From Clavelina lepadiformis (taxonomy: Eukaryota; Chordata; Ascidiacea; Aplousobranchia; Clavelinidae): a stretch of 64,000 nucleotides of DNA. Position numbers and translations under genes: made by a program. The stretch is taken from the NCBI RefSeq assembly GCF_947623445.1, contig NC_135241.1:6202501-6266500 (forward strand). The letters run 5' to 3'. Positions 29,382 through 57,165 of this stretch are shown in pieces. Numbering within the stretch: position 1 is the first letter of the stretch; the number at the start of each line of letters is the position of its first letter. Under the pieces are notes generated by a model that was given only the letters and a program-made list of their open reading frames with translations, searched no databases and was not told where the DNA came from.

Positions 29382-32300
29382 TCACACGCAGGTTTCTTCC
29401 AGTAACCACATCTCCTGCACCTCTACGTCTTTGTTGTCACTACAGTTCATAATCATACGGTAAACATCCGGAGCCTTTTTTGAAATTGTCAAACTTACAC
29501 ATCGAGCTCTAGAGTTCTGCTTGTTGCTATTTGTCGATGATGTATTGCCCAATATACGTCCACTTGATGGATGGAAACGATTTGTTAGGTTTTGACGGCT
29601 ATCTCTTCCGATTGACCAATCCGACGGTAACGTTTGACTGCGCCGATATCCTCGTTCCTTTACAGGGTCGTTTTGAGGAGCTGCATAGAAAAAAATTGTA
29701 GTTACACCCAAAAGCGTTATTCTGTGTTACGATAATTCTGCTCAACTAACTTAACTTAGTTTAAGCGTGATTATTGTTTATCAACCAAAAGGTAGTTATT
29801 TAATACTAAACTTACGTGTTCTAGTTACTAGTTTATTGCCTTGCACTTTCCAAATGATTGCAATTGTTTTGGACACCGAACATTTTAATAAAAAATTTCA
29901 TACAAAAGTATTGCCTACCATTCATTGATAAGGTACTCGTTTCATGCACAAAACAGTTGAAGGTTTCTTCGTCGGTTGGCTGATTTGAAGAATCGTTTTC
30001 GATGTTTCGAATGCGTCCCAATTCATCTACATACAATTGCACCCAAACTGAGCAAAGTTACGCAGCATGGAGCAAGAAAAGATTAAATTGTCAATAGTAG
30101 TAAGACACTACTCTGGCAAGTGAAAATATTTTCTTTCGTTCAATTTTTTCTGAAATAATTTCAACCGATAGAAGTGTAGAACATTCATTCTTATGACAGT
30201 ATTCTGCGGGTCTTAAAGGTTTGGTATACCAAATAAGATGATGTCATAATCTTAAAAGTTTACCAAAGATATCATCTATTGAAGATGTCGCTGAAGATAT
30301 CGTGTCGTAGTCAGGAGATACGGTGGATTGTAAGTGTCTTTCGCAATTTGAATGAAATGAAAATTTTTCTTTCATAGGTGCCGATGTTTTTATTGCAGTA
30401 GCTTGTGCTGAATAAAAAGTCAACAATAAAAGTTACTATCAAAAATGGTTTAAAGTAGCTAGTAGACAACATAGCCAAAGCAAGCAGTTTTGTATGACTT
30501 GTGCCTATTATAGACTACAGATTTTCAGGCTTACAATTAGGTGTGACAGACTTTGTCTCTAAAATCCGATATAAAAAGCAGATGTGGGCAATCAGTAGGC
30601 AAAAAGCTTCTTTAAAAGTACCTTCGGTACTGGTAGGCTACTTTGAAAGTAGCGTCGGTACTGGTATCGGCTACTTTAAAAGTACTGTCGGTACTGGTAT
30701 CGGCTACTTTGAAAGTACCGTCGGTACTGGTAAGCTACTTGGCTAAAAGTTTGCCGACGATACTGGTATTCAATACTGTTTCAAAAAAGTAGTTCGGTAC
30801 TTTGGGGGTACCGCTATTTTTGTGTAAACAGAATCTGCTGGAAGTGGCAACAACCTTGCGCCTCTCCTTGTTTCAGTGAAGTAAGGATATTTTCAGCTCC
30901 CGGTGCGTAACATTATTTGACTACTGTTATAACATGGTCTAAAATCGATTTATTGGTCAAAAAGCTGTCAATTTAAATTTTTTGCTTTTCAAATGTATTA
31001 CTGCATATAGGCAATTTCATGTTAACGTATATAACCATTGGGAGAACTGAGTCTTCCACCCACGTCCTGGTAGTTTAACAACACCTATACTGTTGGCATA
31101 TATTCATTGTGAAACGTCGCATTATTTTGTAACTTCGCATACTTTTCTATTGCAAAGGCATGTTCAAATGGCATTGCATTTTAGGTGCAGTTACTTAATG
31201 AATTGACCTTCAGACAGACCCTGATATGGTTTGCCTGACCAAAACATGTCTTATTTTTCCAACTACCGTAGTGGTTAATCCAATAGTAGGGATGAACTTA
31301 ACCCGAATAGATTCGCTGACAATCGCCCGTGTGGAAGATTCGGGCGAACATGAATACTAACAAAGGCAAACCGGAATACAAGATTACTTATAAATTTATC
31401 GACTTTGGTAAAAAATGATGATTTATTTTGCTGAATAAGCTAAACTAGTGTCAACATTTCTTGCTAAAGGTCAATTACTTAAGGACTTTGCTAAATCGCC
31501 ATTTGATCTATAAATAATTTATAGCAATTATGTAACGTTACAAGCAAGATTTGGCAACTTTTTGATAAAGTCTTATTATTTGGTACTGATATGAATAAAT
31601 TTGGGTTTCGTTCGTGTCGACATTTATGATATTCGGATTTGCATGAACCCGAATAATCGTCCGCGTGGCACATCCCTCTCCAGTTGACAAATAAAGGAAT
31701 ACTTTGCTTTGTTAATCTATTTTCTAATCATCGCGGTCGCCATTGACCGACAAACAAGCAAACTACTCTACAAACTGTACCTTTGCCCATATCATGGCCT
31801 TGAAGTTTTATCGGCCCCTAATTTTATTAGTTGTTCCTTTCCTAGCTATATTCTAAAAATTAAAAATTTGATCAAAATCCATTATAACTTACCTTTGAAC
31901 AACATTAGGCTATTACTGATGCAAACAAACCACAAATGTCGGTAAAGACACTTCATACACTTCATGCAAGTCTACGAGTCGGTGACGTACATAGACTACC
32001 GCTTTTGGCTATTATCAAGGTTGAACACACTTTGGTTTTCAAACCCGATGACAGAAAATCGTATAAAGCCTTCACAATACCTGGCAAAGCAATGTAATCG
32101 CTCAAGTTTTCGGATTCACCAGATGCGTCAAAAACAAAGCTGTTTCGGTCATTTTGATAGCGGTTATGGCTGTCTGAGGAGTTTTACAATGTAGTTAACA
32201 TCAATTAATTAATTAATTATCAGCAATAATTATTTGTTCTGGTAGAGATTAAAATGCATAGCGCATATGAACATATAAATGGTTACCTTCCTGTAATATT

Positions 32301-35300
32301 CCTAATTTGTCTCAAAAAGTCAATTATTCATTCATACCTAAGTTTTGATGAAGGTTATTCCCGTTATTCTTTTCCTTCCTAGGCAAATCGTTAGCAGGGT
32401 CTTTGCAGTGCTCCTGTCGGTTTCTATAAAGTTCGTCTGTAGAATTGCAGAACATCGTATGGTTAGTCAACAAAGCTAGGTTGTTTGTAACCTATATAAC
32501 TCTAAGTTATAACTTATTTCGTACTTGGTCCAGTTATGTGCTGCTGTGTAATATTCATATGCTGAGTAAGGTTCTCTTGGATAGACTTGCAGCCAATATG
32601 CAGGTTTTCTCTATTATCAAGGTTTTGTGTTTCGGCCAAATTTACTGATCCACAATCTTGCACATTAGTCGTTCTAGGCTCAACGTTTGTTGCGTTGTCA
32701 TTGTTTTCTACTGACGTTTCATTCCATTCAGGTCTATGGCCTGAAAGCAGGGTAATAAAATATAAATAGCGAAAGTATATATAGTGAAGCGAAGTAAAGT
32801 GAAATTTGTAATTTTCTTATTAACAAGTTTATTCTGGAGGAAGCAATAAGCCTATGTACATCTACAAAAACATTGGTCTGTGTTTGTATGAATTTTCCAA
32901 ACGCATTATTTATGCAGTGATTTTTGCAAATAGAATTATTTACTCCCTGTATTGATTAAAGGTGTTTCTTGCTCTTCGTCAGAGGTTTCTTCTATTGGAT
33001 CTGAGCTTATATTATTCGAATTATCTGGCACTGCATCTTCAACACAAGAAGCTTGGTGCATACAACTTTTATTTTGATCATTTTAAACACGAGCTTTCAA
33101 CAATACTGTTGGCTATAAATAGACTTTGTGGTCATACGTTTTGGTTTAACACATTTTGGTTCTAACATTTGATAAGATGTCGCATGGTCGTTATACTATG
33201 GAGGCTATACCTGGCAAGGGGGTGTAATCGCTCGTGTTTTCGGAATCGTCAGATACGCCAAAAACGGAACAGTTTCGCTCATTTTGAGAGTGGCTATGAC
33301 TGTCTGAAGAGTTTTACAACTTAACGTTAATTACTTATTATTATCGGTTATAATTATTTGTTCTGATATAGCGTTTGAAATGTGTTCTGCTTGAATGTAT
33401 AAATGTCTTAAATGGTTACCTTGCGATAAGATGGATATAGTTTGTCTCAAAAAATCAATTTTTCATTTATACCTGCATCTTGATGATGGTCATTCTCGTT
33501 GTCTTCTCTACGCACATCATCACCAGGTTCGTTGTATGGTTCACCTCGGCTTCTATGAAGTGGTTCTTCTGTAGAATTTTAGAACAATGTGGGTTAACCA
33601 ATAAAGATTGTTTGGAACTTATCTAACTCTATAACTTATTTCGGGTGTATATTATCTGAGTGACAGTTTATTTGAGTGACAGTTCATTTAAGTGACATAA
33701 TTATAGTTCATTTGAGTGACACATTGATAAGTACTGTTTAATTCATTTGAGTGACACATTGATATGGACTGTGTAATTCATTTGAGTGACAAATTGACAT
33801 TTGTTGTTTAAGTTGCAGTTGCTATTAATTAGTAAGTGCACAGATGACAACACACACAAGACAAAGTTTAGAATACTATCTGCAATGTACATGCTATCTG
33901 CAATGTACTATCTGCAAGAGTACTATCTGCAATGTACTTGCACATAGAGTACTATGTGCAAAATGCAACAGATAACATGGTTTCCGTTGTATTTGTGTGA
34001 AGAGCAACGGAAACCATGTTATCTGTTGCATTTATATCGTATGTGCCACTCATTTCTCAACCATTACTGTAGTTTGAACAGTACTCACCAATGTGTCACT
34101 CAAATGAACTGTCACTCAGTTGAGCATGAATTATTTGTCACTCAAATGAACGTTAAAAGAATGTGTCACTCAAATGAGCTGTCACTCAAATGAAGTGTCA
34201 CTCAGTTGATCAACTACCCTTATTTCACAGACGTAAGCTCAACATTTTTTCTTTTTTTTCAGGATTTCTCAGTATGAGTTAAAACAGAAATTTCGTGTGA
34301 GCGAACTTTTTTTTAGTTTAACTTGGCTCTCTTGCAAGCTCTCACCCTCGTCTATGAAACAAAGGTAAAGTTTGCTCATGTATTCTGCATATGTCTATAC
34401 ATGTTTCTATCACAATGTAAAATGAGCATCAAACTATATTTTTATTTCCAAAGTTAAATTTTTAGTGATTCTTATACCTCCAAAAGCTGTGTTGGGCGTC
34501 ATACACACATTGTTTGTTATGTAATATGTGGAATTATTGTTGCCCACGTGTCCAATGCTACAGTTTTGAATTTCATAAACGTTTGCGTTGCTTTCATTTG
34601 AATTACTTGCTGTTGGCATTTGAGCTTCAGGTCTGTCAGCTGAAATATAAATCGGCCTTTGTCAACAAAGGAATAATTTTATCGGAAGAACCAAACATAA
34701 ACCACCTTACGAACCAACATAAAATTGCGCATTTCTTTTAATTACAATGTACAGCATGATATCTTTAACGAAATTGTACATTAAAAAAGCAAACAAAACA
34801 TTCATGTTTTATTAAACCAAATTCAAAATTGGCTACAACTAAAACACAGGTTCTAATTACCATTGTGTTGATCTATCTCCGGCCTTTGCTCAAAATTCCC
34901 ATTTTCATTTTCAAACTCTGCATCTTAAAATAGAAATGTTGTGAGCATTGAACAGGCACTTACTGAACGCATTATTTTTACAGTGATTTTTGCAAATAAA
35001 ATTAGTTACTATCGTTTCCAGGTGCTTCTGGCTCTTCGTCAGAGGTTTCTTCTATTGGACCTGAGCTTGTATTATTCGAATTATTATCAGGCACTGCATC
35101 TTCAATACAAATAACTAAGTGCATAAAAGTCTTGTATTCAACACTTCATTCAAGTGTATGTACAACATTGTTATATTATCCAAATGAAAGTTTGTTTTTG
35201 CTTTTCCATTTACTCTTTGATAAAGATTCCTTTTAACTAAACCCTATATAGAAATCAACAGAAATTTACTTCAATACTGAGATTGTACTAAATCGAATTT

Positions 35301-36536
35301 GAGTCAGTTTACTTAAGGTGAGCTGATAGCTGCATGGGTGCTCGATCGTTTGGGTGGATTTATTCCAGTAAATAATATAGTATCTAGTTCATTTACCAAC
35401 TTCTAAGCGACTTTGTGCGTAAGTCGAGTTCGGAATTCCGTGATCTTCGAGATTTCCTTCTATCCTTCTGGGTTCGCTGTCACTATTCGTCGAGAGTTTT
35501 CTCCCCTTAAATTGATTTTACAGCTTTTATTCAGTTTTTTTTCTACCCGTTTGACCATATGTGACTTATACTTAACTGCTTGCATGCAATATTACTACAG
35601 TCGTTGTAAGCTATAGTTGCAGTAGGTACTTTTAAATATTCCTTGGCAGTTTTTGAACTCATAAAGATACTGTCTAAATTATGCAGTCTAATATCTTTAC
35701 AATTACCACACCTCTGCTTGCCAGGTCGAAATAGCTTGGGAAGAGGAACTTGACTTTGAAACATTTCGTCGACTAATACCCACAACATCTAATAAATACA
35801 GTACTGTAAAATAGCCTATAATAGTGATTAGATTAACCTATGCTTTTAATCTATTTATCAAAAAAGAATCTAGGAGAAATACGTGCTAAAAATACTTCAG
35901 CTTCGAGTTAACGAGCTTCTACTGTCGGGTAGTAGACCTATAAGTTGAGTTATAAGATAACTGATATCCCAAATCTTGTTTAATTATGCCAACTGCATAG
36001 CCAAATTCAAGCTTATATTTATACAGTACTTTTCTAACAAACCAACTTTAATAATGACTAAAATCAAAATACATGTTCTTACCATTGCTTTCATCTGCCC
36101 CTGGCCTTTGTTCAAATTTCCAATTTTCATTTTCAAACACGGCTTCTTGAAACAAGAATGTTGAAACGTTGAGCAGTCACTTAACGAATATTGGGAAATA
36201 GTAACAATACTGCATGTATAATTTAATCGTTTGTTTTCAAATTTCTTTGTATCCAATGCGATTTAATTTTTTGCTTTCAAATAAGTAGTTATTGAACTTT
36301 TAATACTGTAAAATCTTTTTACCGGTTCCTACTGGTGTCAGTGAGTGATTTAAGTAAGCTTTATATTCATGTTCAGCCGGAGCTCCGGCTGCATCTCTCA
36401 TGGCTGTCATGATTCCATCATTTTGCATGGGGTCATCTTCACTATGGGGTGAATTTTTTACCGTCTTACTTTTTGGCTGTTTTTTCTTGGTTGGGAGAAG
36501 CGGCAATAAACAACATGCTGAAATTCTGAACTTCCG
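29382..36536 (-). CDS. Array gene A: unrecognised modular low-complexity protein with RHIM-like exon (start codon lost)
   Basis: Proposed exons: 36536-36323, 36145-36083, 35099-35010, 34923-34861, 34639-34478, 33568-33473, 33036-32944, 32740-32525, 32436-32338, 30407-30264, 30026-29919, 29680-29382. All internal borders are phase 1 and the sum is an exact 549 codons. The first exon aligns with gene C exon 1, including CCLLPL and DAAGAPAE, but C's ATG is ATT here. The next in-frame ATG would start at MQNDGIM, unless an unseen exon supplies one. Acidic linkers (EETSDEEPEAPG), NENGNFEQRPEI-type exons and the RHIM-like exon (IGHVGNNNSTYY, 172-183) follow. A divergent second set of the same modules comes after (33036-32338). 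The last exon is basic and Ser-rich (RRSQTLPSDW). One more candidate exon (about 35505-35397, STNSDSEP...) has no phase-matching acceptor. I do not recognise the family. Confidence 0.5.
30612..30735. repeat. 33-bp minisatellite
   Basis: Between three and four units of about 33 bp read GGTACTGGTATCGGCTACTT and then KAAAGTACYGTC. Starts are at about 30626, 30657, 30690 and 30723; the first unit is 31 bp. Each unit is partly self-complementary. It lies in an intron of gene A. Confidence 0.7.
33650..34215. mobile_element. Fold-back element with TGAGTGAC arrays
   Basis: The left arm holds repeated CATTTGAGTGACA units. The right arm holds the same unit inverted (TGTCACTCAAATGA). In the middle is a perfect hairpin (listed separately), preceded by several ACTATCTGCAATGT repeats (33870-33935). 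There is no coding capacity. It lies in an intron of gene A. The superfamily is unknown. Confidence 0.65.
33961..34033. repeat. Perfect 29-bp inverted repeat (hairpin)
   Basis: The left arm 33961-33989 and right arm 34005-34033 are exact reverse complements (core CAGATAACATGGTTTCCGTT), separated by a 15-base loop. As RNA from either strand this would be a 73-nt stem-loop of precursor-microRNA size. It could instead be the centre of the surrounding fold-back transposon. Confidence 0.85.
34382..35250. repeat. Recent segmental duplicate, gene A copy
   Basis: Aligns end to end with 45415-46279 with only scattered substitutions and small indels (mid-to-high 90s percent identity by eye). It covers the RHIM-like exon, the NENGNFEQRP exon, the acidic exon and their introns. 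Confidence 0.85.
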
Positions 36537-38519: not shown

Positions 38520-39070
38520 CTTTTTAAACGCATTATTTTCTCAATAATTTTTGCAAATAAAAGTAGTTAGTATTGTGCTTTACGGTACTTTGGGTTCTTT
38601 GTCGTCAATGGCTTATTGGATCTGCGCTTACAGTATCGGGCACTGCGTTTTCAACACAAAAAATAAGGTGCATATAAAAGTCTAATATGCAACATTTTAT
38701 GAAAGCGCTCATAACAACATTGTTAGTCAGTTAAACGCTTACTTTTGCTTGCTCATTATGTTAGGTAAAGGTTTCCTTTGTGTACTAACCATGAAATCGA
38801 CAGAAATTGGCGTTACCGAGTTTGAGTTTTTCGACATTGAGTTATATTTTAGGGTGAATTGATAGAAACCGAGATTGGGCTGGGTGCTCGTATGAGTACT
38901 TTCATTCCAGCAAAAATAACATTTACTTCATTAACCAGATTCCAAGCGCCTTCGTGCGCAAGTTGAACTCAAACTTTCAATATCTTCGAGATTGTTCTTT
39001 CTATATCTTCCTAGATTTGCTGTCACAATTTGTCAAGAGTTTTGTATTCTTGTTTTGTCAATCTTTTCTT
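38520..39070 (-). pseudogene. Dead partial copy of the array gene
   Basis: Collinear with gene A 34980-35510. It holds degenerate versions of the acidic EETSDEEP exon (38530-38690) and of the STNSDSEP exon (38940-39060). The second has an in-frame TAG after about ten codons, and the first has lost its frame. It shows a fourth array copy once existed. Confidence 0.6.
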
Positions 39071-39346
39071 GAATGGATCAGGGTACAACTTGTTTTGGCC
39101 TGCTTTTCCTGCAAATTAAGTTATAGCGAAACTTCTTCGATATCATCATTACGTCCGTTGCCCTAGTAGATATCTCCAACATCCTTTGCTTGCAAGCAAT
39201 ATGAGGAAATGTTATAGAAATTTTATGCTTGTAAGTTTGTATTCTTTGAAACCGTTTATGTTTTATACTCATTGAATTATAAAGAAAGTTATATATGTAT
39301 ATATATATGCATATATCAATAAAACCAAACCGTGGCTTGCTTAACC

Positions 39347-39860
39347 CTATTTTAACTAGGCTTGGCCTCTCCCGCACACAGTCACAGCAAAACGTGGCGT
39401 ACAGTTGTATTGTTTGCTGTAGAAACTTGAAATTTGGTGACTTTTCCTAAAAAATGTTCAGCTATCTGTCCATGTTTGTTTGATAAAGTTGGATTTTGTA
39501 ATTTATGAGATATTGTGATATTTTCATAATTTTGCTCTCTCTCCGCATTGAAGCGTATTACTCATTTACGCACCACTAACTCGACTAAGTATTCTCTTGC
39601 GTTCTCTTCTCGCGGTCAGCTGGTTTTCCTCACAGCGGGGGCGCGGCGTAACAAGAAGAATTTATAGAAATGTGTCACTTTTAGAAATACTTAATTTACA
39701 CTAAATTCACTTTCTTTAGTTTTACAATTATGATGTATACAGGAAGCCAGATGATTTTTCTACTAATCTGTAAAAATCCGATCAGTTTACGACGTATAGT
39801 TTTCTAGTAATTAACGATTGAAAATGTATGTGCGGGGTCGGCCACACCTAGTTAAAATAG
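39347..39860. mobile_element. 514-bp TIR MITE
   Basis: The ends are CTATTTTAACTAGG on the left and its reverse complement on the right, continuing into a less exact GGCC...CCCGCACA inverted match. No open frame was found. Confidence 0.6.
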
Positions 39861-41597: not shown

Positions 41598-44500
41598 TCA
41601 AACCGTGTTCTCCTGATGTAAAGACTGCATTTCCATTGCTTCTTCTTTGTAGCTGGTGCCATTCGTTTGGCCAGTGTATGAAGACCGTGTCAGAATCGGC
41701 CAACTTAGAATTCGACCTTTAAGTTTCTTCCAGTTTCCCACATTTGGCCGATATGAGGGCAGCGTCTGACTGTGTGGATGACATTCAATCTTTTTCTTGT
41801 GACTGTAAGGTAGCCCTGCATTCCACCATGGCATAGAATGAAAGTTTGAAGCTATCTCAAAATTATGGTGACCATTGTGAATTGCACTCATATGTTAAAT
41901 TTATTGTATGTTAATCTTTATCAATTAATCTATTTGTATCCACTTCAGTTTATAAGTGTTTTTGAGTAATTTGTAATATTTTTGTATAGCTTCAGCATAT
42001 GCAGACGCAATTGCTGTAAAAAAGGCAAAGCTTTAACAACAAACTAATTCAAATGTAGGCTTACCGTTAATTGTACAGGATTTCGTTTTATTCGCAATAG
42101 GTCGTAAATCTTCTTTGCTCTCGAAATGATTGTCGTTGAATTGTAAAGAACCGGATAAACAGCTCTCTCTACGCTCCATTTTAGCTGTATGAAGTCACAT
42201 GTTACAATGTATAAACGAGCCCAACTCGGTTCCACCCGCAAGTTGAATAATTTTTTGAGACCAGCTTGTGTAAAAAACTACCTTTGTCAAGTGCACGCAC
42301 ACCAAGTGACTTGACTCTTATTTTAAGGTTATGAAAATATTAGAATTTATTGTACAAGTAAATGTCACAAACTTATACTTAGATTTTTTACCCAATAACT
42401 ATCCACATAATAAGAAAATAGTTGAAAAAAGTAAAAAAGTAAATGTACGTACGAAAAAAAGTGCTGATGCAAAAAGTATCTTTTTTTGTTTATTAAACCC
42501 ATTCAGTGATGGGATTCAAGGGTTTTGCGTGGATTTGGCAAACGCAGTATTCTTAATTTAGCCGGTGTTTAGGCGAAGTTGATCTCAATGTTTATTACCT
42601 CATATGTAGGCCTGCACTGTGATCGTCGTTTGCAAAATAATGTTAGAGAATACCTCTTTGGGTAAAGTAGATATTTTAAAATATTTATGCTCTATTTGAA
42701 AATAACCGTCATAATTTGTTTCAAATTCATTTAGTTTAATGCAACCCATTCTTTATCATGGAATTTGAATTAAGGAAAGTTATTGAACCCAGTTGCATTG
42801 ACTACAAGTTAGAGTCGTCAAAAATTTACCACATGTATCAACCACTGAAGATACAGCTGACGATATTGGGACGTCATCACGCGATACGGTATAGATAGAT
42901 ACGCTATTAGTCTATCGGAGCTTGAACGAAATGGAAATTCTTCTATAACAGACGTCAATGATTTTAATACTTTGTGAAAGGTCAGTATATCGAAAGATAT
43001 ACCGGTAACCATTCATTGTAGAGAAAGTGGGCATGGTTTCGGGGCAAGTAAGTTTGTTGTGATTTTGCATTTTGTATGACTCTTGCATAGAGACTGCAAA
43101 CTTTTTAGCCATATATCATGGTTTAACGCACTTTGGTTCTAAGTGCCGATATAGAAAGTCGTATAGACTTATCACTGTACTTGGAAAAAAGTGCATTTAA
43201 TCGTGTTTTCGAAACGGTCGCTGATCGAATCGCAAGATGTGCTAGAAAATAGCTGTTTTTCTCATTTTGGTAGCAGCTTTGGGCATCAGTGGAGTTTCAC
43301 ATCTTGGCATTAGTTAGTTATAAGCAATTGTTAGTCATTCTGGTATAGGGCTAAAAATGCATTGCTCTTTTTGAATGTATAAATGGTCACCCTACCATCA
43401 AACAAATCGTTTTTAGTTAGTTTCAAGATTTGTCATTTATACCTGCGTCTTGATGACAATCATTCCCGTTGTTTTCTTGTGGCAAATCGTTAGCAGGATT
43501 GTTGTATGGCACATCTCGGTTTCTATATCGTTGTTCTTCTAGAAACGGCATTGTATGGTCAAGCAATAAATGTTGTTTGTAGCTTGCCACTAGTTCTATA
43601 ACTTATTTTGTATAAATTAAGTTATGCGTTTTCACTTTTTCCCGGAATTTCTCAGGGTGAGTTAATACAGAAATTTATTGCAAGCAGGAAATTCTGCTTT
43701 TGTTTAATGCACTTGAGCTATCTGTTTCATTGGGAAAAAGAGCATTAGTTGAAACTGATACGTGTACACATGTACACATTCTTCTGTAAAGTTGCGTGTT
43801 TACCTTCAATGTCGTTTTTCACGTCAGAGATGCAACTTTGAAGAACTAAGGATTCTGCCTCAGCATGACCGTCGGAAAATGTGTTCATGTCTGCCATGTG
43901 TTCTGAATACAATATAGCTTATAGACACAAGCAAACTTTAGAAGGGTAGCCTAACCATAATTCCATCAAAGAAATAAGATCTACACAGAACAAAATCATA
44001 GAGCTATTGGACTTGGAGTTCATTTGAAAAAATTAAAAAGATAACAATTCAAAGGATGTTAAGACTTTTCTTTATTAAAACGAGAGGCAAAAACAAGTTG
44101 GCCTTAAATCAAAGAGTAATTGTCAATAAATACAGTATACTGGTGAAAGGATTTGTACTAATATGTATAGTGGTTGTGCAGTTATTGCTATAATTAAGTG
44201 GCAAAAAACGCAAATTCTTGGCTTATATATGACATAGATGGCGGTTCTTATTACGTCATAATAAAAGACACGATAGTATGACTGTTAATTGGAGCAACTA
44301 GGAATGAAGTGATTCCGGCGACAGACAAGTAAATAATAATAGGTATAGTTATAGCGTAGCTAATTGTATAACTGGAATATTTTACGTTAAATGTGCCTAA
44401 ACTAGCTTACCGTTGGTATATTTTTGCTGGTTGATGTGGCTGCTAACCTACAGTGCAGTCTTGGCTGTTGGCTTTAGCCAAGTCCGGTACCGGTAACTAC

Positions 44501-47500
44501 GGTAACAAGAAGAATGCATTACCAATTTATGTACTGCCATCTGTGACATTCCTTAGCTGAAAATAAACATTCTCTGCTACTAATCACCTTCTCATGGAGA
44601 CCTATTCCATCCAAAACGCGTTAGCTACCCTACCATACCTAATAAAAACTCCCTGTCATAAAGCACATCGTTTTGACATTGTGACGCCACCAATTCTTCA
44701 TATTTGGAGGCCAAATTTGCCATACAATTTTGGCAATTACAGCTTAACCACTGCATATTATATTAAAAATCCTTTCACCAGTATGTTTACTGACAACTAC
44801 TCTTTGATTGAATGCCAACTTGTTTTTGGATTTGTCCCTCACTTTAACGAAACCATTCAAGTCAATTATGAACTTATTTCTATCAGATGGCAGATATTAT
44901 AAGTCTCCCTGAAATAGTGGTTTTACTCTTTGTGGCCAGTTACTAGACCAAGAGGGAACTTGACTCCCTAAAAAGTATATGTCCCCTAAAAGGAGAAATT
45001 TTGTCCTGCATCGTTCAAAAGTAATGTATTTGCATTAGTTGTCGTTGGGCTCCCGTGAAAAAGTCTTCATTTTCTCTTGTTCCTCAAGCAAGTTATGGTT
45101 CTGACAAGTACCCAATACATTTCCAAAATTTTTGTATATACAACATATCCTGGAATGCATTAACTGATGAAGAAATGCGTTATATAGCAACTTTACACTC
45201 CATCCCATTGTCCTAGGTTGCCCACCTGGATCTGCAAGGTTATTGCTCATGTTATCCTCTTCAAACGAGTCGTTAGCCGTTGTGTTATGTCGTTCACCTT
45301 GATTCCTGTTTGGGTGATCTAAATAAACCGTTTTTACATAGTGTGAATATTGGCTGTCAAAGTGTCATTCTGCTTAACATACTTCGTGTACAATTTATTT
45401 GAGATACTGTTGTTATTCTGCATATGTCTACACATGTTTCTATCACAATGCAAAATGAGCATCAAACTGTTTTTTATTTGCAAAGTTAAATTTTTAATGA
45501 TTCTTATACCTCCAAAAGCTGTGTTGGGCGTCATACACACATTGTTTGTTATGTAATATGTGGAATTATTGTTGCCCACGTGTCCAATGCTACAGTTTTG
45601 AATTTCATAAACGTTTGCGTTGCTTTCATTTGAATTACTCGCTGTTGGCATTTGAGCTTCAGGTCTTTCAGCTGAAATATAAGTCGGTCTTTGTCAACAA
45701 AGGAGTAATTTTATTGGAAGAACCAAACATTAACCACCTTACGAACCAACATAAGATTGAGCATTTCTTTTAATTACAATGTACAGCATGATATCTTTAA
45801 CGGAATTGTACATTGAAAAAGCAAACAAAACATTCATGTTTTATTAAACCAAATTCAAAATTGGCTACAACTAAAACACAGGTTCTAATTACCATTGTGT
45901 TGATCTATCTCCGGCCTTTGCTCAAAATTCCCATTTTCATTTTCAAACTCTGCATCTTAAAATAGAAATGTTGTGAGCATTGAACAGGCACTTACTGAAC
46001 GCATTATTTTTACAGTGATTTTTGCAAATAAAATAATTTACTATCGTTTCCAGGTGCTTCTGACTCTTCATCAGAGGTTTCTTCTATTGGACCTGAGCTT
46101 GTATTATTCGAATTATCAGGCACTGCATCTTCAATACAAATAACTAAGTGCATAAAAATCTTGTATTCAACACTTCATACAAGTGTATGTACAACATTGT
46201 TATGTTATCCAAATGAAAGTTTGTTTTTGCTTTTCCATTTTCTCTTTGATAAAGATTCTCTTTAACTTAACCCTATATATACCTTTGGGTGTACATTATA
46301 AAGGTGTACGTACAACATTGTTAAAACGTTAAGAGTTTCTCTTTACTTTTTCATTATGTTAGAATTAGATGAAGGTACTCTTTGAGCTGGGAATCTACAG
46401 CATAAAATTGCTATGCAGGGATTAGGGGAGACCGGGGCTAGTTGGAAAACGGGGTTAGTTGAAAAATCGATGTTTTACTATTCTCCGAACATCTTTGTAA
46501 ATCTTTACTGCCCTTTAGTGATTGACAACGATGTTATCTATTTGCCATGTTAATTTTATTGGTCTAAGAGCAGAAGCAGAAGAGTGGCACACGTTTTTCT
46601 GTTTTTTTTACTTTGAACTAAAAATCGAGATTGTTGGTAAATTTCGTGTAACATAGTGCTTTAGAGAGATAAGTGAAAGTTCATTAGTCTATATTGATCG
46701 TAGGTGGCATGGTACCAGAAAAGGCAGAGTCAATTAAATTACCTGGTTTAGTGGCTACATAAAAAGTAATTTTTCTCTCCCATGTGCATACGGGGTTAGT
46801 TGGAAAATTTTGAATGGGGTTAGTTGGAAAGTAAGACAATGCCAAAAAGCATGGCATTGTCTTACACTCATTTCCACCCCATTGCTCTCATAAGCTGCAG
46901 CCGCTAGATAGGGCTGTTTATGGGCCTTTCAAGCGTTATTACAACAGCGCTTGTGACTGCTGGATGAAAGAAAATCGAGGAACAAGAATAACTATTTATG
47001 ACATCCCTGATATGGTAGGGAGAAGTTTCCCCAGAGCATTCACACCAGTAAACATAAAAATTTGTAAATGCTTGATAAATGCTTCAAAGTCTGACTCTGA
47101 CAAAGCACCGCCGCCACTCTTATCCGATGAAGAGGACTACTCAGACGGGAGTACAACAGACGATGAAGAAATGACAGAGGTTTTTCAACCAAATGACATT
47201 AAAGAAGGTGAATTTGCACTGGTCAAATTTTCTGCAAGAAAAAGTGTGCAGTACTACGTCGGAGATGTAAGTGATGTTTTTGAAGATGGGGACATAACCT
47301 TCAAATTTTTGAAGCGCTCCAATCACTTTAAATTAGCGAATGAGCGCCCCTAGTTTATTTTTCCTATGGACACTGACGAATCGGAATTCACTCAAAATTT
47401 AAAAGACATTGTATTCAAATTTCCTGTTCCTTTCAACAGAAGAGGAACGAAACGCTGTCAGCAGAACTTTATCTTCCCTGTTGACTTGTCGGGCTACAAT

Positions 47501-48052
47501 CCACAATAGATTGATTGACATTCAAAGAACAGACACTTTTGAATACTGTATATAACAAATCGATGTATTTTCCAACTAACCCCGTGTGGTTTTCCAACAA
47601 GCCCCGGCGTCGAGGTTAGTTGGAAAACGTGACTGATGTCTGAAAAAATTAAAGTTTGTGCGTAAACCTGTAACAATTTCTGTTCAGTCTTTTGTAATAA
47701 GTTGTAGATCATCGTAGTCATTATGCCAGACTAGATAAAGATTTCGAAGATCATTCTGAATTTTGGTGGTTTAAATTTTCCTAAAAATTTTTCCAACTAA
47801 CCCCGGTCTCCCCTAAGTTTATTAATTTAAAGTTAGTTTTAAGTGAACTGTTACCAGTTAGGTTAAATTGGATTGGATTAGCTGAGTGCTCGTTTGAGTG
47901 CTTTTTTAACAAACAGAAAATATATAGAATATAGCGTTTATATAACGTTTACCAGATTCCAAGCGACTTTTTGCTTGAATTAAGCTCGCTTTTTCCTGAT
48001 CTTCGAGCTTGTCATCCACCCTTACTGATTCGCTGTCACTGTTTGTCGACAT
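41598..48052 (-). CDS. Array gene B: unrecognised modular low-complexity protein with RHIM-like exon
   Basis: Proposed exons: 48052-47953, 46128-46042, 45955-45893, 45671-45510, 45318-45226, 43902-43804, 43538-43443, 42184-42065, 41815-41598. All borders are phase 1; the sum is 346 codons (345 residues). The start MSTNSDSESV at 48052 is one of several in-frame ATGs; MRRSKKARKQK at 48085 would add a basic stretch. The product has an acidic linker (EETSDEESEAPG), then NENGNFEQRPEIDQ. The RHIM-like exon follows (IGHVGNNN, 112-119), then Asn-rich linkers (NRNQGERHNTTAND). The tail is basic and contains SQTLPS, shared with gene A. An alternative last exon (43721-43675) ends SRISCLQ and stop. The counterpart of gene A exon 30407-30264 (about 42985-42826) is frameshifted, so I left it out. 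Expression is unknown. Confidence 0.5.
44088..44828. mobile_element. 741-bp TIR MITE, copy in gene B
   Basis: Inverted ends of about 60 bp: CAAAAACAAGTTGGC, then ATCAAAGAGTARTTGTCA and ACTGGTGAAAGGATTT, each with an inverted partner at 44765-44828. Close relative of the copy at 56148-56901 and more distant from 10624-11098. It holds no transposase and lies in an intron of gene B. Confidence 0.75.
45415..46279. repeat. Recent segmental duplicate, gene B copy
   Basis: Partner of 34382-35250. One visible coding difference is an extra Asn codon in the acidic exon of gene A. Confidence 0.85.
46425..47813 (+). mobile_element. pogo-like transposon, internally deleted
   Basis: Terminal inverted repeats of about 25 bp, GGGGAGACCGGGGCTAGTTG at the left and in complement at the right, flanked by TA on both sides. 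GGGGTTAGTTGGAAA recurs inside near both ends. Length is 1389 bp. It holds the 3' part of a transposase gene and sits between exons 1 and 2 of gene B. Confidence 0.85.
46862..47353 (+). pseudogene. pogo-type DDE transposase, C-terminal fragment
   Basis: The frame reads FPPHCSHKLQPLDRAVYGPF and then KRYYNSACDCWMKENRG and ITIYDIPDMVGRSFPRAFTP, ending in an acidic tail and stop. HKLQPLD is the block with the third catalytic Asp of pogo/Tigger/jerky transposases. The DNA-binding half and the first two Asp motifs are absent. A perfect 13-bp hairpin (TAAGACAATGCCA with its complement, about 46833-46865) marks the likely deletion junction. Confidence 0.75.
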
Positions 48053-48716
48053 TTTTTGTTTCCTTGCTTTTTTCGATCGCCTCATAAATGGGTTACAGCC
48101 GCTTGCTTTAGCATGCTTTTTCTGCAGTTTTTTCACAAATGTCATCAATGTCATCAACACAATTTTGACTATTTTGGATATATGCAACGCTGTTGCTTGC
48201 AAGCAATACGAGTAAATATTATAGATGGTTATACAGTAAATATTAGATGCCTGTAAAGATATTAGATCTTTATGACAAAACCTTGTAACTAGCTGGTTTG
48301 GTGGAAATGACTTGAGAAGAGAAACTTGGTGTTGATTCAGACCTTCGCCTCTTATCTTAAAGATAAAATATAGTTCTTAATCAAGGGTAAGTTTGCTTCT
48401 GGGAATAAATTTCACCTAACCAAGTGGTAAATTTTCTGATTTAGGCTAATACTTCCAAATAACAAATCCAACAAAAAATGAGTTGGAAATGTCATAACAT
48501 GTTATTATAGTCATGCCGTTAAACGACAAAAAAACCAAGCCAGTTTTTACTTAAAGGTTTGCATTGTTTTATCAAGTTTATCCTTCTGAAGGTATGTAAT
48601 CTGAAACAATAGAAATAAATGTCTATTTTGTGTGTGAGGAGAAAGGATTTGCTGTTGAAAGTTTGCATTAGGGTAAATAAGATAAAATTAAGTCAAGAAC
48701 CATATACAGTGAGACC

Positions 48717-49623
48717 TCGTTAATCCGGACAACTTCGTTTCGTCAAAAAATGTCGGTTTAGCGGGGTATCCGGATTATCGGAAAGTAAAAAATCAATCAA
48801 TCTTGCAAATGCAGCACCGTGTTCAAAACGCAGTATGCACCTTACTCCAATTCTAAGTACCGACTTTCTGGCTGGACAGCAACTAAAATAAAATTATATT
48901 TTTTGTATGATCCGACCCAGTGTCGAACCCCAGAACCACCGTATTAAAGACGAATGCTCTCCAAGTGACGAACATGCGGCCGCAAATCGGTTTGACAACC
49001 GCTCTTGCATGGCGATGCATTCCGCCGGGACCAGCAGTCTTTAACTTTCTTTGACTTGTTTCCAATCTTTGCGCAATGCGATATCAAAAGCTGATAGCAC
49101 GATTGAGTTACAGCAGTATGTCTTCAATAGATTGCCGCACTCAACCGATGTACTGTACGTATTTTTTTGCGACCGCGGAAGTGTTGTTTGTTACTGTTGA
49201 TGAACAATTTATTTTTTTGTTTCTAAAATACTGTACAGTATTTCATAGTATGACTAAAAAGCTGTGCGGCTAAAATTTTTTACAAAGCGCAATGCTGTAC
49301 AGTACTGTACTTTTCAATCAATAAAGACCGCAACGTTATTATGCGTAGATAATCGGCTATTGTTTCGTCAACTAACTACCCAGTGTACATAGTGTATTAG
49401 GACAATCGTGAATCATTTTCGCTTAACTGTTAATAATCCGGTTTATCGGATTTTATTGCTATTGATTTAGCACATTTGTTCCAAAACTTTTGTGTCGGAG
49501 TCGGACAGCGGGGTTTCCGGATTACAGGGGTAAAATGCATAGAAAGAAATCCGTTCCCGGCAGTTTTGTGTCGGATAGCGGGGATTCCGGTTGTTCGGGG
49601 TACGGATTAACGAGGTCCCACTG
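48717..49623. mobile_element. pogo/Tigger-like TIR element, copy 2
   Basis: 907 bp, flanked by TA, with CAGTGAGACCTCGTTAATCC at the left and its near-complement at the right (one mismatch). It is the same element as 15092-16128 in inverted orientation, shorter by about 130 bp in the middle. It carries the same tRNA-like piece. There is no transposase. Confidence 0.8.
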
Positions 49624-52600
49624 TATTTGATATAGCGTACATTTTGATCGTATAAACAATTATGTGTTATCGGGTGTGATAATGTTGTCATACATCCTAC
49701 ATTTAAAACAGCAGCGTATATTGTTTATATAAAATTACTAATTCTACTTATATAAATTATCGTATAAAATAAACTTTTATTATGTCTTACCAACGACATA
49801 TCATTTATTGCAATCATGTATAATTTGCTATAACTTAAAACGCTAAAAGACTGCCCTAATAGCCCAGTAAGCCTATAACCTACACATGGTTGGCCTGAGA
49901 ACATACGACATTTCCTGAAACTTTCCTCGTAATTTTTCGTTTTTACAAAGGATGGTTTTTAGTTCATAAAATAAAGCATATAGCCTAGTACAGTGGTCGG
50001 CAAACTTTTTTTGTCGCGGGCTCGCGGCCCAAAATACTGTTTCAAGAGCTATTGAAGGCCCACTACGTGAAACCACTACGACAAAACGAATAATTTAATT
50101 GTTAAACAAAAACATCAATCGCTTGTACAACGCAATAGCTTGCTACTAATACTTTGGTACTTTCTCAGATTATCGCATTACCAAAAGCGACAGGCAAAAA
50201 TTGCGTTTTTTAACAGGAATTTCGGGTCAAAAAGAAACTAAATATACAATTATGTACAATGAATGTACGGCTATCACGCGGCCCACAACTACATGATAAA
50301 ACTGAAATAAGAATAAATAGCTCACGGCCCACTAAAAATTGTTAAAAGGCTCACATTTAGGCCGTGGCCCACAATTTTCCGACCACTGGCCTAGTAGCTT
50401 ATATATCCTACCTTTTCGCAAATTTATCAACTTTTTTCTTCCAGTTGAACTACAAGAAGTGCTCTGCAAATAACAGATTTTTGTGAGTAAAACTTTCTTA
50501 AACAAAAATGCAAACAATTTTAATTAAAAAGTTCCTCATTAAATGAAACAAAGCAGCAGGATTGGCCATACCTTTTTGCAAGGCTTGTTTTGGTTCTGGT
50601 CCATAGAATCCATTATCCTAGATTTCGTTTGAGTGGCTATACACCGGCAGGATTAACAATAATATAATCGAGTGCAGGAAGCATACTACACAAAATTTTT
50701 CTTCATTTTCTCCTAAAAGACATACTTGAAACAATCTACAGTATATGTTTCTTGCTGCTAGTACCCATAGTGATCACTGATTACTAATTCATAGGATTGT
50801 TGTTGACAAACGATGACGCAATGTTTGTTCATTGGGGCAAGGGCCGGATGACGCGCAATTCCTAAACCGTAATATGCCAATTTGCTGAGATAACTGAACT
50901 TGCATAGAAACGCTGACTGCACCAAAGTGACTGAAATGGCAACTGAAATGTTTTTCTTAGCTGAAATATACTTCAAAAAAGTTTTTGGATTTTTAAACTT
51001 TTTGCAAAGCTTTACTTATAATGCAATATTGTAAGATTTTTAGAAATTGTTATTTCAGGGTTCATCTTTTTATTACGACACTCGAAATCAAATTCGCTTT
51101 CTTAAATTTGCTTGCTTTTACTGCTTCGGAATGCATCGTATACGTGAGATCCAAGTATAAAACTTAGGCTTATAACCACTTTTGGCAACTTATTCACTGA
51201 AATGCAATTTGACAAACTCTTAGCCTTGAAGCAATGTATTCAAAGTTGAAATGTTTCTTTGTTTGAAATCTAAATCATCTCATACTTTTAGTTATCTAAG
51301 ATCTACTACCAAAAAGCTCCAAATCTAACAAACAGCCTAAATTTAAGCTTTTCGTAATTGGTGTTATAACTGATTAAGTATCGGAAAATCACACTGAAGC
51401 ATGCAGTTAATAACTAAAGCCTTTTTTTCTCTTAATGAAAGACTTTAATTTGAACGTCACCTAACCAAGGGCGAGAACTGTCAGAGTTAAGTAAATCCAC
51501 AGTTCCGCATTTTTCAGCCTTCAGTGCGATAACTGTAAATATAACTTCAGCGGAAAAGCAAACACAAAATGACCTGCATGAAACATCTCACGAGTACAAG
51601 CTGACTTATAAAATACTATTCGAAATAAAAATTGATAGATAAAAGTAATGTCCGCGCATTTTGCTTGTTTTTTCATGAAACTGTTTGCACGAAAGTAATG
51701 TTTTCTTTGAAGACTGTTTCACCAATCGACGTCGAAAGTGTGTTTAGGAATTTAAAATATAGTTGTCAATAAACAAATGCCAAAAACAGGTCAAAATATG
51801 CTCAATTGCATTTTCAACTTGAGCCCTTTTGCGCTATTGTAAAAGAGAATTCACTGCGCTGCAGTTACGTTCGTTTTACCTAACCTTTATTAGCAAAATA
51901 ACGAATCATAATGATGGCAAGAAGTTAGGATCATCTTTTCATTCCACGTGCAATGGCATAGAAACAACGGTTTGTTTAGCAATGGACTCAGTAGAAATAG
52001 AATTGATAGAGCGCTAATCATACTTCTATACTAGCAAATTTTCCACAAATCTTACATATTTGGAATAAGAATTCGCATACACATTAATTAATAATTAACC
52101 AGGATTTCGTTTACTGAGCTCCCACTAATTGAAGCTCAAAACGGAACGAAAATCATTGTTTAAACAGGGTGTCGCAAAGTTTGCTATAGCTAATACGGGA
52201 GATGGGTGAATAATCGGAATTAACATTTAACGTTATTTTGGTAAAGTAACTTAGCGTTGGCTTGCTGAGTATAGACTACAGCAGTTGTTTTGTAAAAACA
52301 TTTGTGCATTCTGTACTTGACTATGGCAAGTTTATTTTTCGTATGCAGCTGAATAGTTTTTTACTTTTTGTAATGGTTTATAATTCTATTTTCTTAAAAC
52401 TTTTACTATTGTGATTTCCTGCTTTAGGTTCGGCTGCATACGCTCCAACTTCAGTATTAATATTACTACTTATTAGATACACTCATACTGTATAAGCAAG
52501 ATTTAATGTCGTTCACCTTTCTGTAGTTGAGTCGACCCTATACTAAACAATGTGTATTTATGATCGCACTCGTTCACTCAAAGATTCAAACACAGAAACG

Positions 52601-54270: not shown

Positions 54271-57165
54271 CTATAAATTACGCATTTCGATAAATTCTGG
54301 TCCATCTTCTGTCGGTGGTCCGTAACCAAATATCCTCCAAAACCAAGTTGATGAAAACGAACGTTCTTTATTGAGGTTATGCGTGAAAGATGAAGAATTG
54401 TCATCGCTTGTAGTTGTTTGATTCTGACCGCTTAATGCTCCTGAGCTATCTGTTTCATTGGGAGAAAAGAGCAATGTTTGAAACTTACACATGTACAGGT
54501 GCATAATTACAATTCTTATGTAAAAGTCAATATTTACCCTCAACGTCGTTTTTCAAGTCAAGGATGCAACTTTGTTCAATACTTGCAAGAAGTGACGAGT
54601 CTGACTTAGCATGATTGTCGGGGAAAGTATTCATCCATGGCGAGTGTTCTGCAAAGAAAAATGTACAGTTATACGCAAAAACAAACTCAAATCGGGCGCC
54701 CATAATAATTCCATAAAAGAATTAAGATCAACACAAAACAGAATCATAGAAAATGAAGTTCGTATAAAAAACAAAAATAATAACAATTCAAAGGCTGTTA
54801 AACTTTTTCTGCTAATGAAATTGTTCAAGTTGAGTACGGACTTATATCTATCGTGGTATTATTCTGTCAACGATCTTTCCCTTAAATGACGTTTTAATCT
54901 TTGGACTAATCTATTAATCAAACTCGTAACTAGCCCGAGGGGGACATAAGCCCCTATAAAAAATCTGTTACCCCAAGAAAAATTGTGTCTTGCATGTAGT
55001 TTCAAGGTAATATATTTGTTCTAAGCTGTCGTTCTGGCCCTTCCAAAAAATCTCTACAGTTTCTTGTGCTCCAAGCTAATTACGGACCTGACAATTACCC
55101 AAGAATCTTTCAAAATGTTTTAGTATGACATTTTCTGGAATGAATTAATTATTTAATGGAGAAGAACGTTGTGTTGCAATTTTGCAGTTTAAGTCATTCA
55201 TCCCATAGTGCTGTTTTGCCTACCTTCATCTGCAGGGTTATTGCTTACATTATCCTCTTCAAACGAGTCGCTAGCCGTTGTGTTATGTCGTTCACCTTGA
55301 TTCCTGTTTTGGTCATCTATATTAACCGATTTTACACAAGTTTGAATGTTGGCTGTAAAAGTGTCATTCTACTTATTGCTTGCTTTGCTTTGTTAAATCT
55401 ACTTAAGATACTATTGTTATTCTGTATATATCTATACATGTTTCTATCACAATGTAAAATGAGCAACAAGCTATTTTCTATTTACAAAGTTAAAAAATAA
55501 TTGATTCGTATACCTCCAAATTGTGTATTGGGCGTCGCATACACATAGTTTTTTATGTGATATGATGTGGAGGAATTATTGTTGCCCACTTGTCCAATTT
55601 TGCAGTTCTGAAATTCAAAAATGTTTGCATTGTTTGCCGTTGTGTGACTTGTTGGTATTTGAGCTTCAGGTTTGTCAGCTGAAATATAAATCGGTCTAAG
55701 TTAGTACAAACTGAAGCATATAAGCTTTGTCAACAAAGACCTGATTTTACATGAAATGTTTGGTTATGAAATAACCAAACATGAACCACCTTATGGACCT
55801 ACAAATATGAACCATCATAAGAGAGTATATTTTTTTAATTATAAAAATAAATATAGCATGATATCAAACTGATGTATACATTGCAAAAAGCAAAACAAAT
55901 ATTCACTTTTTGTTTAACCAATTTTAATAATAGCTACAATTAAAACACACGTTCTTACCATTGCGTTGATCTGCCTCTAGCATTCGCTCAAAATTCCCGT
56001 TTTCATTTTCAGACTGTGCATCTTAAAATAGAAATATTGTAAGTGTTGAACAGACACCTTTTGGATACCGAGAGAAAGTAACAATACTGTACAAACAATA
56101 ACTCGTATTAAACTAGTTCTCGGTACCTTCACCGTTGCTTAAAAGTCCAAAATCAAGCTGGCCTTAAAGTAAGAAGTTGTTATCAATAAATATGCTGGTG
56201 AAAGGAATTGTACTAATACGTATTGGTTAAGCAGTTATTGCCATAAATAAGTGGCAAAAAAGCAAGTTCATTGCTTAATTATGACATTGATGGCGATTCT
56301 TATTACGTCACAATAAAAGAACCAACAGGGATTACTCAGGTATTTGGGTCAAGTATGACTAGTATGTTCCTTCTGACAAGTAAAGAGTAATATGCATAAT
56401 TATATAGGCGTACTTAAATGTATAAAAGGAACATTTTGCGTTAAATAACCCTAAACTACTGTAGCTTACCGTTGGTGTATTTGTACTGGTTAGTGTACAT
56501 GCTAACCTACAGTACAGTGCAGCTTTGGCTGTTGGCTCTACTATAGCCTAGTCCGGTACCGGTAACTGCCGTAAAAACCAGAAAGCATTACCAGTTTATG
56601 TGCTCTTATCTGTGACATTCTTTAGCTGAAAATAACTGTTAACTGCTACTAATCACCTTCCCATGGAGACGTATTCCATCCAAAACGCTTAGCCACTCTA
56701 CCATAAATAATACAATCCCCAATCATCAGACATATTTTTACATTTATACCTGACGTCATGACCACCCTCTCGTCATAATAGAAGGTCAAGTTTGCGATAC
56801 AACTCTGGCAATTACTGCTTAACCACTGCATATTATTAAAAATTCTTTCACCAGTATGTTTACTGACAACTACTCTTTGATTGAATGCCAACTTGTTTTT
56901 GGATTTGCCTCTTACGTTAAAAAATAGTAATCACGTTACGTTAAAAACTTTTTATCTTTAAAATCTTTTTACCAGGTTCCACTTGTCTCGGTATGTAATT
57001 TAAACCAGGGTTGTATTGTTGTTCAGCTGGAACTCCCGCTGCATCGTTTAGCGCTGTAATGGATTCATGCACGGGATTACCGTCGTTATGTGTCAAATTT
57101 TTCTTCGCCTTTCTTCTGGATCGTTTTGACTTCTTTGCGAAGAGCGGCGATAAACAGCATGACAT
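54271..57165 (-). CDS. Array gene C: unrecognised 267-residue protein with N-terminal Cys pair and RHIM-like motif, 6 exons
   Basis: Exons: 57165-56973, 56021-55959, 55678-55514, 55316-55224, 54648-54538, 54449-54271. All borders are phase 1 and the sum is 268 codons. The start MSCCLSPLFAKKSKRSRRKA pairs two cysteines with a basic stretch, which suggests S-acylation at a membrane; there is no transmembrane helix. Then come DAAGVPAEQQY, NENGNFERML and the RHIM-like exon (NCKIGQVGNNNSSTSYHI, motif 113-120). A polar Asn-rich linker (NRNQGERHNTTASD), an acidic exon and the tail FSSTWFWRIFGYGPPTEDGP follow. The sequence looks mostly disordered. It is the most complete member of the array: intact ATG, consensus splice sites and a stop. 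The family and function are unknown to me; a signalling-adaptor role is speculation from the motif alone. Confidence 0.6.
56148..56901. mobile_element. 754-bp TIR MITE, copy in gene C
   Basis: Same family as 44088-44828, with matching ends (CAAAATCAAGCTGGCCTTAA on the left, ACTCTTTGATTGAATGCCAA then CTTGTTTTTG on the right). It lies in intron 1 of gene C, a different intron from the copy in gene B, so the two are separate insertions. Confidence 0.75.

Follow-up and report, generated by a model that had tools for sequence, protein, structure and literature searches.

A tandem array of exon-sharing genes carrying a RHIM-like exon in the ascidian Clavelina lepadiformis

The window analysed here, a stretch of 64,000 nucleotides from Clavelina lepadiformis (contig NC_135241.1), holds a tandem gene array that raises the question of what kind of protein it encodes and of what its RHIM-like exon means. 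The first-pass annotation of this DNA had proposed three same-strand genes (A, B and C), and all three were recovered on the minus strand as exactly mapped RefSeq models, annotated and uncharacterised: LOC143446305, LOC143447358 and LOC143447328, respectively (Table 1). The proteins of genes B and C (P0003 and P0002) gave full-length exact spliced mappings, and residues 2-673 of the gene A protein (P0004) also mapped exactly (672/673), residue 1 lying in an unmapped exon; the exons of the three genes were bounded by GT/AG. The span of gene B was thereby corrected to 50613-41601, and gene C was extended relative to the earlier description, as it reaches upstream to 57942 in RefSeq isoform X2. 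Exons common to the genes, some of them duplicated, were revealed by tblastn, and of the 32 introns that separate mapped exons, 27 were in phase 1, so that exons could be gained, lost or skipped without a break of frame. A separate dead copy, also proposed, was not found: translated search (E<=1) gave 80 matches, all but one of them within mapped exons, and the exception merely runs across an intron of gene B. The Cys-Cys exon without methionine at 36536-36323 is used within the model of gene A. Neither Rfam (at gathering scores) nor ARAGORN gave a match, and no mention of the three loci was found in the literature searched.

Table 1. Positions of the array genes and their exons in the window.
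Feature	Positions	Strand	Basis
Gene A, LOC143446305 (P0004, 673 aa)	29385..36536	-	16 mapped exons; spliced mapping, RefSeq name
Gene B, LOC143447358 (P0003, 435 aa)	41601..50613	-	12 exons; exact spliced mapping, RefSeq name
Gene C, LOC143447328 isoform X2 (P0002, 339 aa)	54274..57942	-	7 exons; exact spliced mapping, RefSeq name
RHIM-like exon, gene A (IQNCSIGHVGNNNSTYYI)	34478..34639	-	pattern match, spliced mapping, profile comparison
RHIM-like exon, gene B (core identical to that of A)	45510..45671	-	pattern match, spliced mapping, profile comparison
RHIM-like exon, gene C (FQNCKIGQVGNNNSSTSYHI)	55514..55678	-	pattern match, spliced mapping, P0001 comparison, profile comparison
Cys-Cys and Lys-rich N-terminal exon, gene A	36323..36536	-	spliced mapping; resembles gene C exon (tblastn)
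Basic exon with single Cys, gene B (SGCNPFMRRSKKARK)	47953..48121	-	spliced mapping
Cys-Cys and polybasic N-terminal exon, gene C (MSCCLSPLFAKKSKRSRRKAKK)	56973..57177	-	spliced mapping
Exon with SDYTPL, gene A	33211..33303	-	duplicate of 32081-32173; spliced mapping
Exon with SDYIAL, gene A	32081..32173	-	duplicate of 33211..33303; spliced mapping
Cassette exon, gene C (DDQNRNQGERHN...)	55224..55316	-	tblastn and P0001 comparison; borders by eye

The family had been described as unassignable, and it stayed so: no relative outside Clavelina was found at E<=10, and the three gene products and P0001, a second C. lepadiformis protein of the gene C type, gave no Pfam domain at E<=1. One of the searches for relatives was run at E<=1 and the others at E<=10, among them a profile search in which all matches were Clavelina proteins. 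Pfam scanning of gene C and of the exons gave nothing relevant, the sole match to gene C as drawn by eye being DUF6683 (E 1.3, 9 bits vs. a cut-off of 23.6), which was set aside. No PDB chain matched the RHIM-like exon or the exon alignment at E<=10. By these searches, A, B and C are a family for which no relative was found, apparently restricted to this lineage.

The motif exons were present on the minus strand where they had first been placed, with IGHVGNNN at 34533-34556 (A) and 45565-45588 (B) and IGQVGNNN at 55575-55598 (C). A degenerate DNA pattern with up to two mismatches found no match in 100 shuffles of the window. Genome-wide, exact matches were solely the three array sites, and the 19 matches with up to two mismatches, these three included, were at background level (16 in the reversed control). 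The core tetrad of RHIMs is given as (V/I)-Q-(V/I/L/C)-G (PMC9444067, PMC9182532), which no array copy has: the tetrad reads G-Q-V-G in C and P0001 and G-H-V-G in A and B, with Gly first in every copy and His in place of Gln in A and B. Three RHIM sequences share seven invariant positions, and two of these, G8 and Y16, are lost in every array copy. The array motif, N-C-(S/K/R)-x-x-(Q/H)-V-G-x-N-N, is similar to N-C-S-G-V-Q-V-G-D-N-N of human RIPK3 and, as in the RHIMs of RIPK3 and RIPK1 (Pfam PF12721), is a short motif within apparent disorder, but it departs from them in its tetrad and in having no Tyr directly behind the Asn, and the array proteins carry no Pfam domain. Of the residues named in the RIPK1/RIPK3 contact, N454 and Q459 (PMC9444067), the Asn aligns with N in all copies and the Gln with Q in C and P0001.

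The likeness to RHIMs that had been claimed held in part, beating chance in profile comparison and against human RIPK3, whereas the tetrad was missing and the Pfam RHIM profile was silent: none of the three exon peptides matched it at E<=10 (cut-off 20 bits), although human RIPK3 (39.1 bits) and human RIPK1 (24.6 bits) were detected as positive controls. When the exon was compared by hhalign with a RIPK1/RIPK3 profile, a P of 0.00047 was obtained, and the score was reached in 1/500 column shuffles, or in 0/500 with trimmed templates. The score itself was 18.0, against 3.1-7.4 for six other exon families, and for whole proteins the best of three templates was equalled in 0-2 of 1000 shuffles. 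This signal appears to come mainly from RIPK3 (P 0.00016 with a RIPK3-only profile, 0.035 with RIPK1 only); pairwise, human RIPK3 was matched beyond chance and human RIPK1 was not, and a second RIPK1 sequence was matched weakly (49-143 of 2000 exon shuffles as good). An HMM made from three RHIM sequences also gave a weak result, with 64-179 of 3000 shuffles as good. Of the RHIM sequences, which also include those of ZBP1, TRIF and insects (cryptic RHIMs), this scoring covered RIPK1 and RIPK3. Among the literature matches listed, none reported a RHIM from a tunicate. The Pfam RHIM profile had two matches genome-wide, both below the cut-off, and the better one, which by eye resembles a dynein-type exon, was set aside as chance.

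The other modules proposed at first were only partly recovered. The N-terminal Cys pair beside Lys/Arg was detected in A and C, whereas B has a single Cys, and in the RefSeq X2 model of gene C the pair is not N-terminal, a hydrophobic stretch lying upstream of it. The linkers, supposedly disordered and acidic, were Asn/Ser-rich and by composition net acidic in three of the four proteins. The AlphaFold model of P0001 (four sequences only) had a mean pLDDT of 41.1, with 240 of 268 residues below 50. Gene A carries three [DE]Yxx[LI] motifs, a count reached in 2 of 2000 shuffles, although five patterns in all were tried on every one of the four proteins. Two of the three motifs are copies of one duplicated exon; these two, SDYTPL and SDYIAL, are ITIM-like. 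Yxx[LIV] was absent from P0001 and gene B and occurred twice in P0002, at chance level (905/2000).

Divergence between gene C and P0001 is concentrated in the RHIM-like exon. In this comparison of two sequences over six exons, 12 of 55 residues differed in that exon vs. 9 of 212 elsewhere (Fisher p=1.3e-4), making it the most divergent of the six, and the differences were unevenly spread (chi-square p=2.6e-4), with 0/64 in the Cys-Cys exon. At the 13 differing columns of the exon (one a gap), P0001 agreed with the paralogue A at seven and with C at one, a pattern that could stem from gene conversion or from changes in a single lineage; P0001 itself may derive from a different population or be a paralogue.

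We tentatively favour the reading that the array encodes lineage-restricted, disordered intracellular proteins, N-terminally anchored flexible scaffolds that recruit partners in the manner of BHF of Botryllus. Such proteins would be assembled from exchangeable phase-1 cassette exons, the N-terminal Cys by the basic stretch would probably serve as membrane anchor through S-acylation, and the tail would recruit partners through the short tyrosine motifs (gene A) and the RHIM-like exon (A, B and C). Disorder in the cell, anchoring and the scaffold role are what we infer from the sequences; nuclear localisation signals are an equally good reading of the basic stretches, and amyloid assembly by the RHIM-like exon is hypothetical. 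BHF, encoded in the fuhc locus of Botryllus schlosseri, is described in a review as having disordered regions, a plasma-membrane location, Yxx(I/L) motifs and three N-terminal cysteines, likely palmitoylated (PMC12065747). Compared by description only, both have Cys near the N-terminus, a colonial tunicate as host and, on the array side in gene A only, tyrosine motifs, and the disorder described for BHF may have a counterpart in the array proteins. BHF is, however, described as one gene, unlike the tandem cassette-exon array, and these descriptions mention no RHIM-like exon, of which the array has one per gene. LAT-type membrane adaptors, with which the same review compares BHF, are similar in their membrane-proximal Cys (a putative anchor in the array), disordered tail (apparent in the array) and Yxx(L/I) motifs (gene A), but P0001 has no tyrosine motifs. 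On this reading, the array proteins are fast-evolving and probably membrane-tethered scaffolds that would work like BHF, an analogy rather than a claim of kinship.

A different reading, possible if doubtful, is that these are orphan genes under weak constraint, young and drifting fast, whose products are disordered, possibly nuclear and without a specific part in assembly; the likeness to RHIMs would then be a chance product of Asn-rich sequence. The long multi-exon frames open in A, B and C argue against it, as do the rarity of the RHIM profile score among column shuffles and the uneven divergence from P0001, which uniform drift does not predict. Nevertheless, it agrees with the absence of relatives outside Clavelina (at E<=1 and at E<=10), and dN between A or B and C (0.21-0.22; dS 0.27) is close to intron divergence (0.15-0.22), which also fits weak constraint. 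The core gives a similar picture: a single base separates A from C there, and no silent change is available for comparison, so that constancy at the DNA level is no evidence of protein selection, and its 0/9 differences between C and P0001 are not significantly few (p=0.09), meaning that neither the A/C bases nor the C/P0001 residues give evidence of protein-level selection keeping the core. In the A/C alignment, 55 of 242 windows of 39 columns (its own and overlapping ones included) equalled or exceeded the core window in conservation, and this test gave no sign that the core is specially conserved.

The profile scores, which sit badly with drift, would suit a true signalling-amyloid adaptor: as a divergent RHIM, the exon would assemble into fibrils and relay a signal of the death or NF-kB type to a partner with a matching motif. 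The aligned contact residues also agree with it, and a tetrad with one deviating residue may still function in part, as human RIPK3 with TQIG or VQSG lost NF-kB activation and kept ZBP1-dependent cell death (PMC12119088). It is distinctly improbable, given Pfam silence despite working controls, the Gly and His in the tetrad, the failing G8 and Y16 and the poor P with RIPK1 alone; moreover, no second gene with the motif appeared in the genome by Pfam RHIM and DNA pattern searches, and no RIPK1 homologue is reported in tunicates by the survey cited (PMC12119088). The excess of differences in the exon would instead be explained if it were the variable, allele-determining segment of an otherwise constant allorecognition or immune-specificity factor, for which the BHF-like layout and the colonial habit of Clavelina also speak; this is improbable, as the excess comes from two sequences, P0001 may be a paralogue or from another population, and its closeness to A allows for gene conversion or one-lineage change. 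To our knowledge, the molecular basis of tunicate colony allorecognition has been worked out chiefly in botryllids. Clavelinidae are given in a 2020 review as unstudied for fusion or allorecognition (PMC7344649).

Very remote is a combination in which a tunicate allorecognition or immune scaffold keeps a divergent RHIM-type core fixed (the 0/9 above, so far short of significance) within an exon that varies between alleles (12/55), specificity lying around an amyloid-like core. If true, chordates would have a counterpart of fungal HET-s-type incompatibility, and this in a lineage for which the published survey found no RIPK1. The array is small and its most divergent exon carries the RHIM-like core, which makes these readings cheaply testable. 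Should neither exon variation nor fibrils be detected, the array would be a clear example of an orphan family that evolves fast and is assembled from cassette exons. One such exon of gene C (55224..55316) is present in P0001 and missing from the RefSeq X2 model.

Within the window (contig C2, 6202501-6266500, of a 209-Mb assembly), the same-strand array of three genes proposed by the first-pass annotation was borne out: genes A, B and C are each RefSeq models, and their proteins were mapped to the DNA by exact spliced translation, full-length in seven exons for C and in 12 for B, with 16 exons covering 672 of the 673 residues of A. Phase 1 was found for 27 of the 32 introns that separate mapped exons (A 14/15, B 9/11, C 4/6), and therefore most exons of the array are skippable or duplicable in frame; two pairs of exons in gene A are duplicates. 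The LOC identifiers of the three genes were not mentioned in the literature searched. The last exon of gene A encodes RSQTLP, which fits the 14-3-3 mode-1 pattern, vs. HSQTLP in that of gene B. A separate dead copy, also proposed, was not confirmed: a translated search of the window with the four Clavelina proteins gave 80 matches at E<=1, of which the single one outside assigned exons does no more than bridge an intron of gene B, and a Cys-Cys exon (the N-terminal exon with a Cys pair) without its own ATG is part of the gene A model.

Positions of the array genes and of other features in the window
Feature	Identifier	Protein	Positions	Strand
Gene A, RefSeq model	LOC143446305	P0004		minus
Gene B, RefSeq model	LOC143447358	P0003		minus
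Gene C, RefSeq model	LOC143447328	P0002		minus
Gene A duplicated exons, first pair			33303-33211, 32173-32081	minus
Gene A duplicated exons, second pair			35099-35010, 33036-32944	minus
Gene A Cys-Cys exon without ATG			36536-36323	minus
Gene A last exon			29385-29680	minus
Tandem unit in gene A intron between exons 32173-32081 and 30407-30264			30604-30740
MITE-like element			44088-44847, 56148-56920
MITE-like element, partial copies			10616-10961
Inverted repeat pair			15087-16132, 48703-49628
DDE_1 transposase fragment, gene B intron			46835-47353	plus
GMC oxidoreductase frame			1600-1926
Asparaginase 2 frame			17130-17513
YL1 nuclear protein frame			19762-20787
Cation-efflux-like frame			25439-25747

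All proteins found came from the colonial ascidian Clavelina lepadiformis. The fourth, P0001, is an 'unnamed protein product' of 268 aa from an 11.2-Mb contig, very close to C, and is either a paralogue of recent origin or an allele from a different individual or population. Relatives beyond these four were not recovered by single-protein search (3/184 candidates at E<=1), profile search (4/4633 at E<=10) or gene A search (2/6614 at E<=10), although distant ones could escape because these searches rely on shared five-residue words. No Pfam domain was detected in any of the four at E<=1, in agreement with the first-pass annotation, which could assign the modules to no known family, and the array family looks lineage-restricted, or evolving too fast for tracing.

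The motif in the exon common to the three genes had been chosen in the first-pass annotation for its likeness to RHIM, the amyloid assembly motif of RIPK1 and RIPK3, before the comparisons that follow. The Pfam RHIM profile matched none of three Clavelina peptides at E<=10, though it recognized human RIPK3 (39.1 bits) and RIPK1 (24.6 bits) peptides over its cut-off of 20, and PDB sequence searches with the exon gave nothing at E<=10. In the portions consulted of PMC9444067 and PMC9182532, the RHIM tetrad is given as (V/I)-Q-(V/I/L/C)-G; C and P0001 have G-Q-V-G instead, and A and B have G-H-V-G. Among seven positions invariant in three RHIM sequences, two are kept by none of the Clavelina copies, namely the Gly that precedes the tetrad and the Tyr that follows the Asn. 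Likeness to human RIPK1 was at chance level (309, 1318 and 1233 of 2000 shuffles equally good) and to a second RIPK1 sequence weakly above it (143, 96 and 49 of 2000), and with a three-sequence RHIM HMM the exons were equalled or bettered by 64, 162 and 179 of 3000 shuffles, a rank within the upper 2 to 6%.

Aligned locally with the RHIM of human RIPK3, the exons scored 37-40, compared to 35 at most for the other 2114 open frames of the window, and few exon shuffles reached these scores (C 3/2000, P0001 0/2000, A 5/2000); when entire proteins were aligned and the highest-scoring of three templates was taken, the score was reached by 0, 2, 0 and 2 of 1000 shuffles. Profile against profile (RIPK1/RIPK3), P was 0.00047, equalled by 1/500 column shuffles, with a score of 18.0 vs. 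3.1-7.4 for six further families of exons in the array; templates trimmed to PDB-printed residues gave P 0.00042 (0/500), and singly 0.00016 for RIPK3 and 0.035 for RIPK1. These comparisons are suggestive of a faint, real-looking resemblance, chiefly to RIPK3, and not of membership; the case for a RHIM is supported in part and unproven.

No amyloid partner with a matching motif is visible in the genome, as the genome-wide RHIM profile search gave no match above cut-off, exact matches to the core DNA pattern were confined to the array (two-mismatch matches being background) and the consulted part of a survey (PMC12119088) states that no RIPK1 homologue was found in tunicates; such searches are limited by introns and by the shortness of the motifs.

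Of the new findings, the most useful is that divergence is uneven and falls on this same RHIM-like exon, which lends itself to a direct population test. Between C and P0001, 12 of 55 compared residues differ there, plus one gap, vs. 9/212 in the rest (Fisher p = 1.3e-4): 0/64 in the Cys-Cys exon, 1/59 in the last exon and 2/21, 3/31 and 3/37 in the remaining three (six exons jointly, chi-square p = 2.6e-4). At the 13 differing columns P0001 sides with paralogue A at seven, with C at one and with neither at five, and therefore gene conversion or change in the C lineage would be as possible as diversifying selection, a choice that two sequences cannot decide. A and B are nearly identical at this exon, which points to a putative recent duplication or conversion.

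Constraint on the core itself was not supported at the protein level, because the 24-base core differs between A and C by one base with zero silent changes, dN for the whole exon (0.21-0.22; dS 0.27) is near the divergence of nearby introns (0.15-0.22), and 55 of 242 39-column windows, its own and overlapping ones counted, equalled or exceeded its conservation. The nine residues IGxVGNNNS show no difference between C and P0001, which is not significantly few given 12/55 (p = 0.09).

Regarding how the proteins might work, AlphaFold (input of four sequences) predicted no fold for P0001, with a mean pLDDT of 41.1 and 240/268 residues below 50. A basic stretch follows the Cys pair in A and C and a single Cys in B; S-acylation plus this patch would tether the proteins to membranes, or the basic stretches could instead be nuclear signals. 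Gene C in its RefSeq X2 form is extended upstream by a segment that contains a hydrophobic stretch and lies ahead of the Cys pair; P0001 begins at that pair. Three [DE]Yxx[LI] motifs occur in gene A, two of them copies of one duplicated exon; 2/2000 shuffles reached this number, the pattern being among five that were tried on each of the four proteins; Yxx[LIV] is absent from P0001 and the gene B protein. In the consulted part of a review (PMC12065747), the Botryllus histocompatibility factor (BHF) is described as a disordered protein that carries Yxx(I/L) motifs, is located at the plasma membrane via three early and probably palmitoylated cysteines, and is required for fusion and rejection alike. 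Judged by that description, the likeness is one of layout, and that the Clavelina proteins might work like BHF, and not as BHF members, is the favoured reading, although a tentative one that we consider less likely than not.

Several repeats were also observed in the window. The 33-base tandem unit in gene A is present in 3.9 copies. The MITE-like transposon (about 760 bases, inverted ends of about 100-120 bases) has two copies, 79% identical, in introns of genes B and C, and the roughly 1-kb repeats of the inverted pair share 94-96% identity, which fits a transposon that was active recently. The DDE_1 fragment scored 22.0 bits, exactly the Pfam cut-off, and among the neighbouring frames the cation-efflux-like one scored just under its own.
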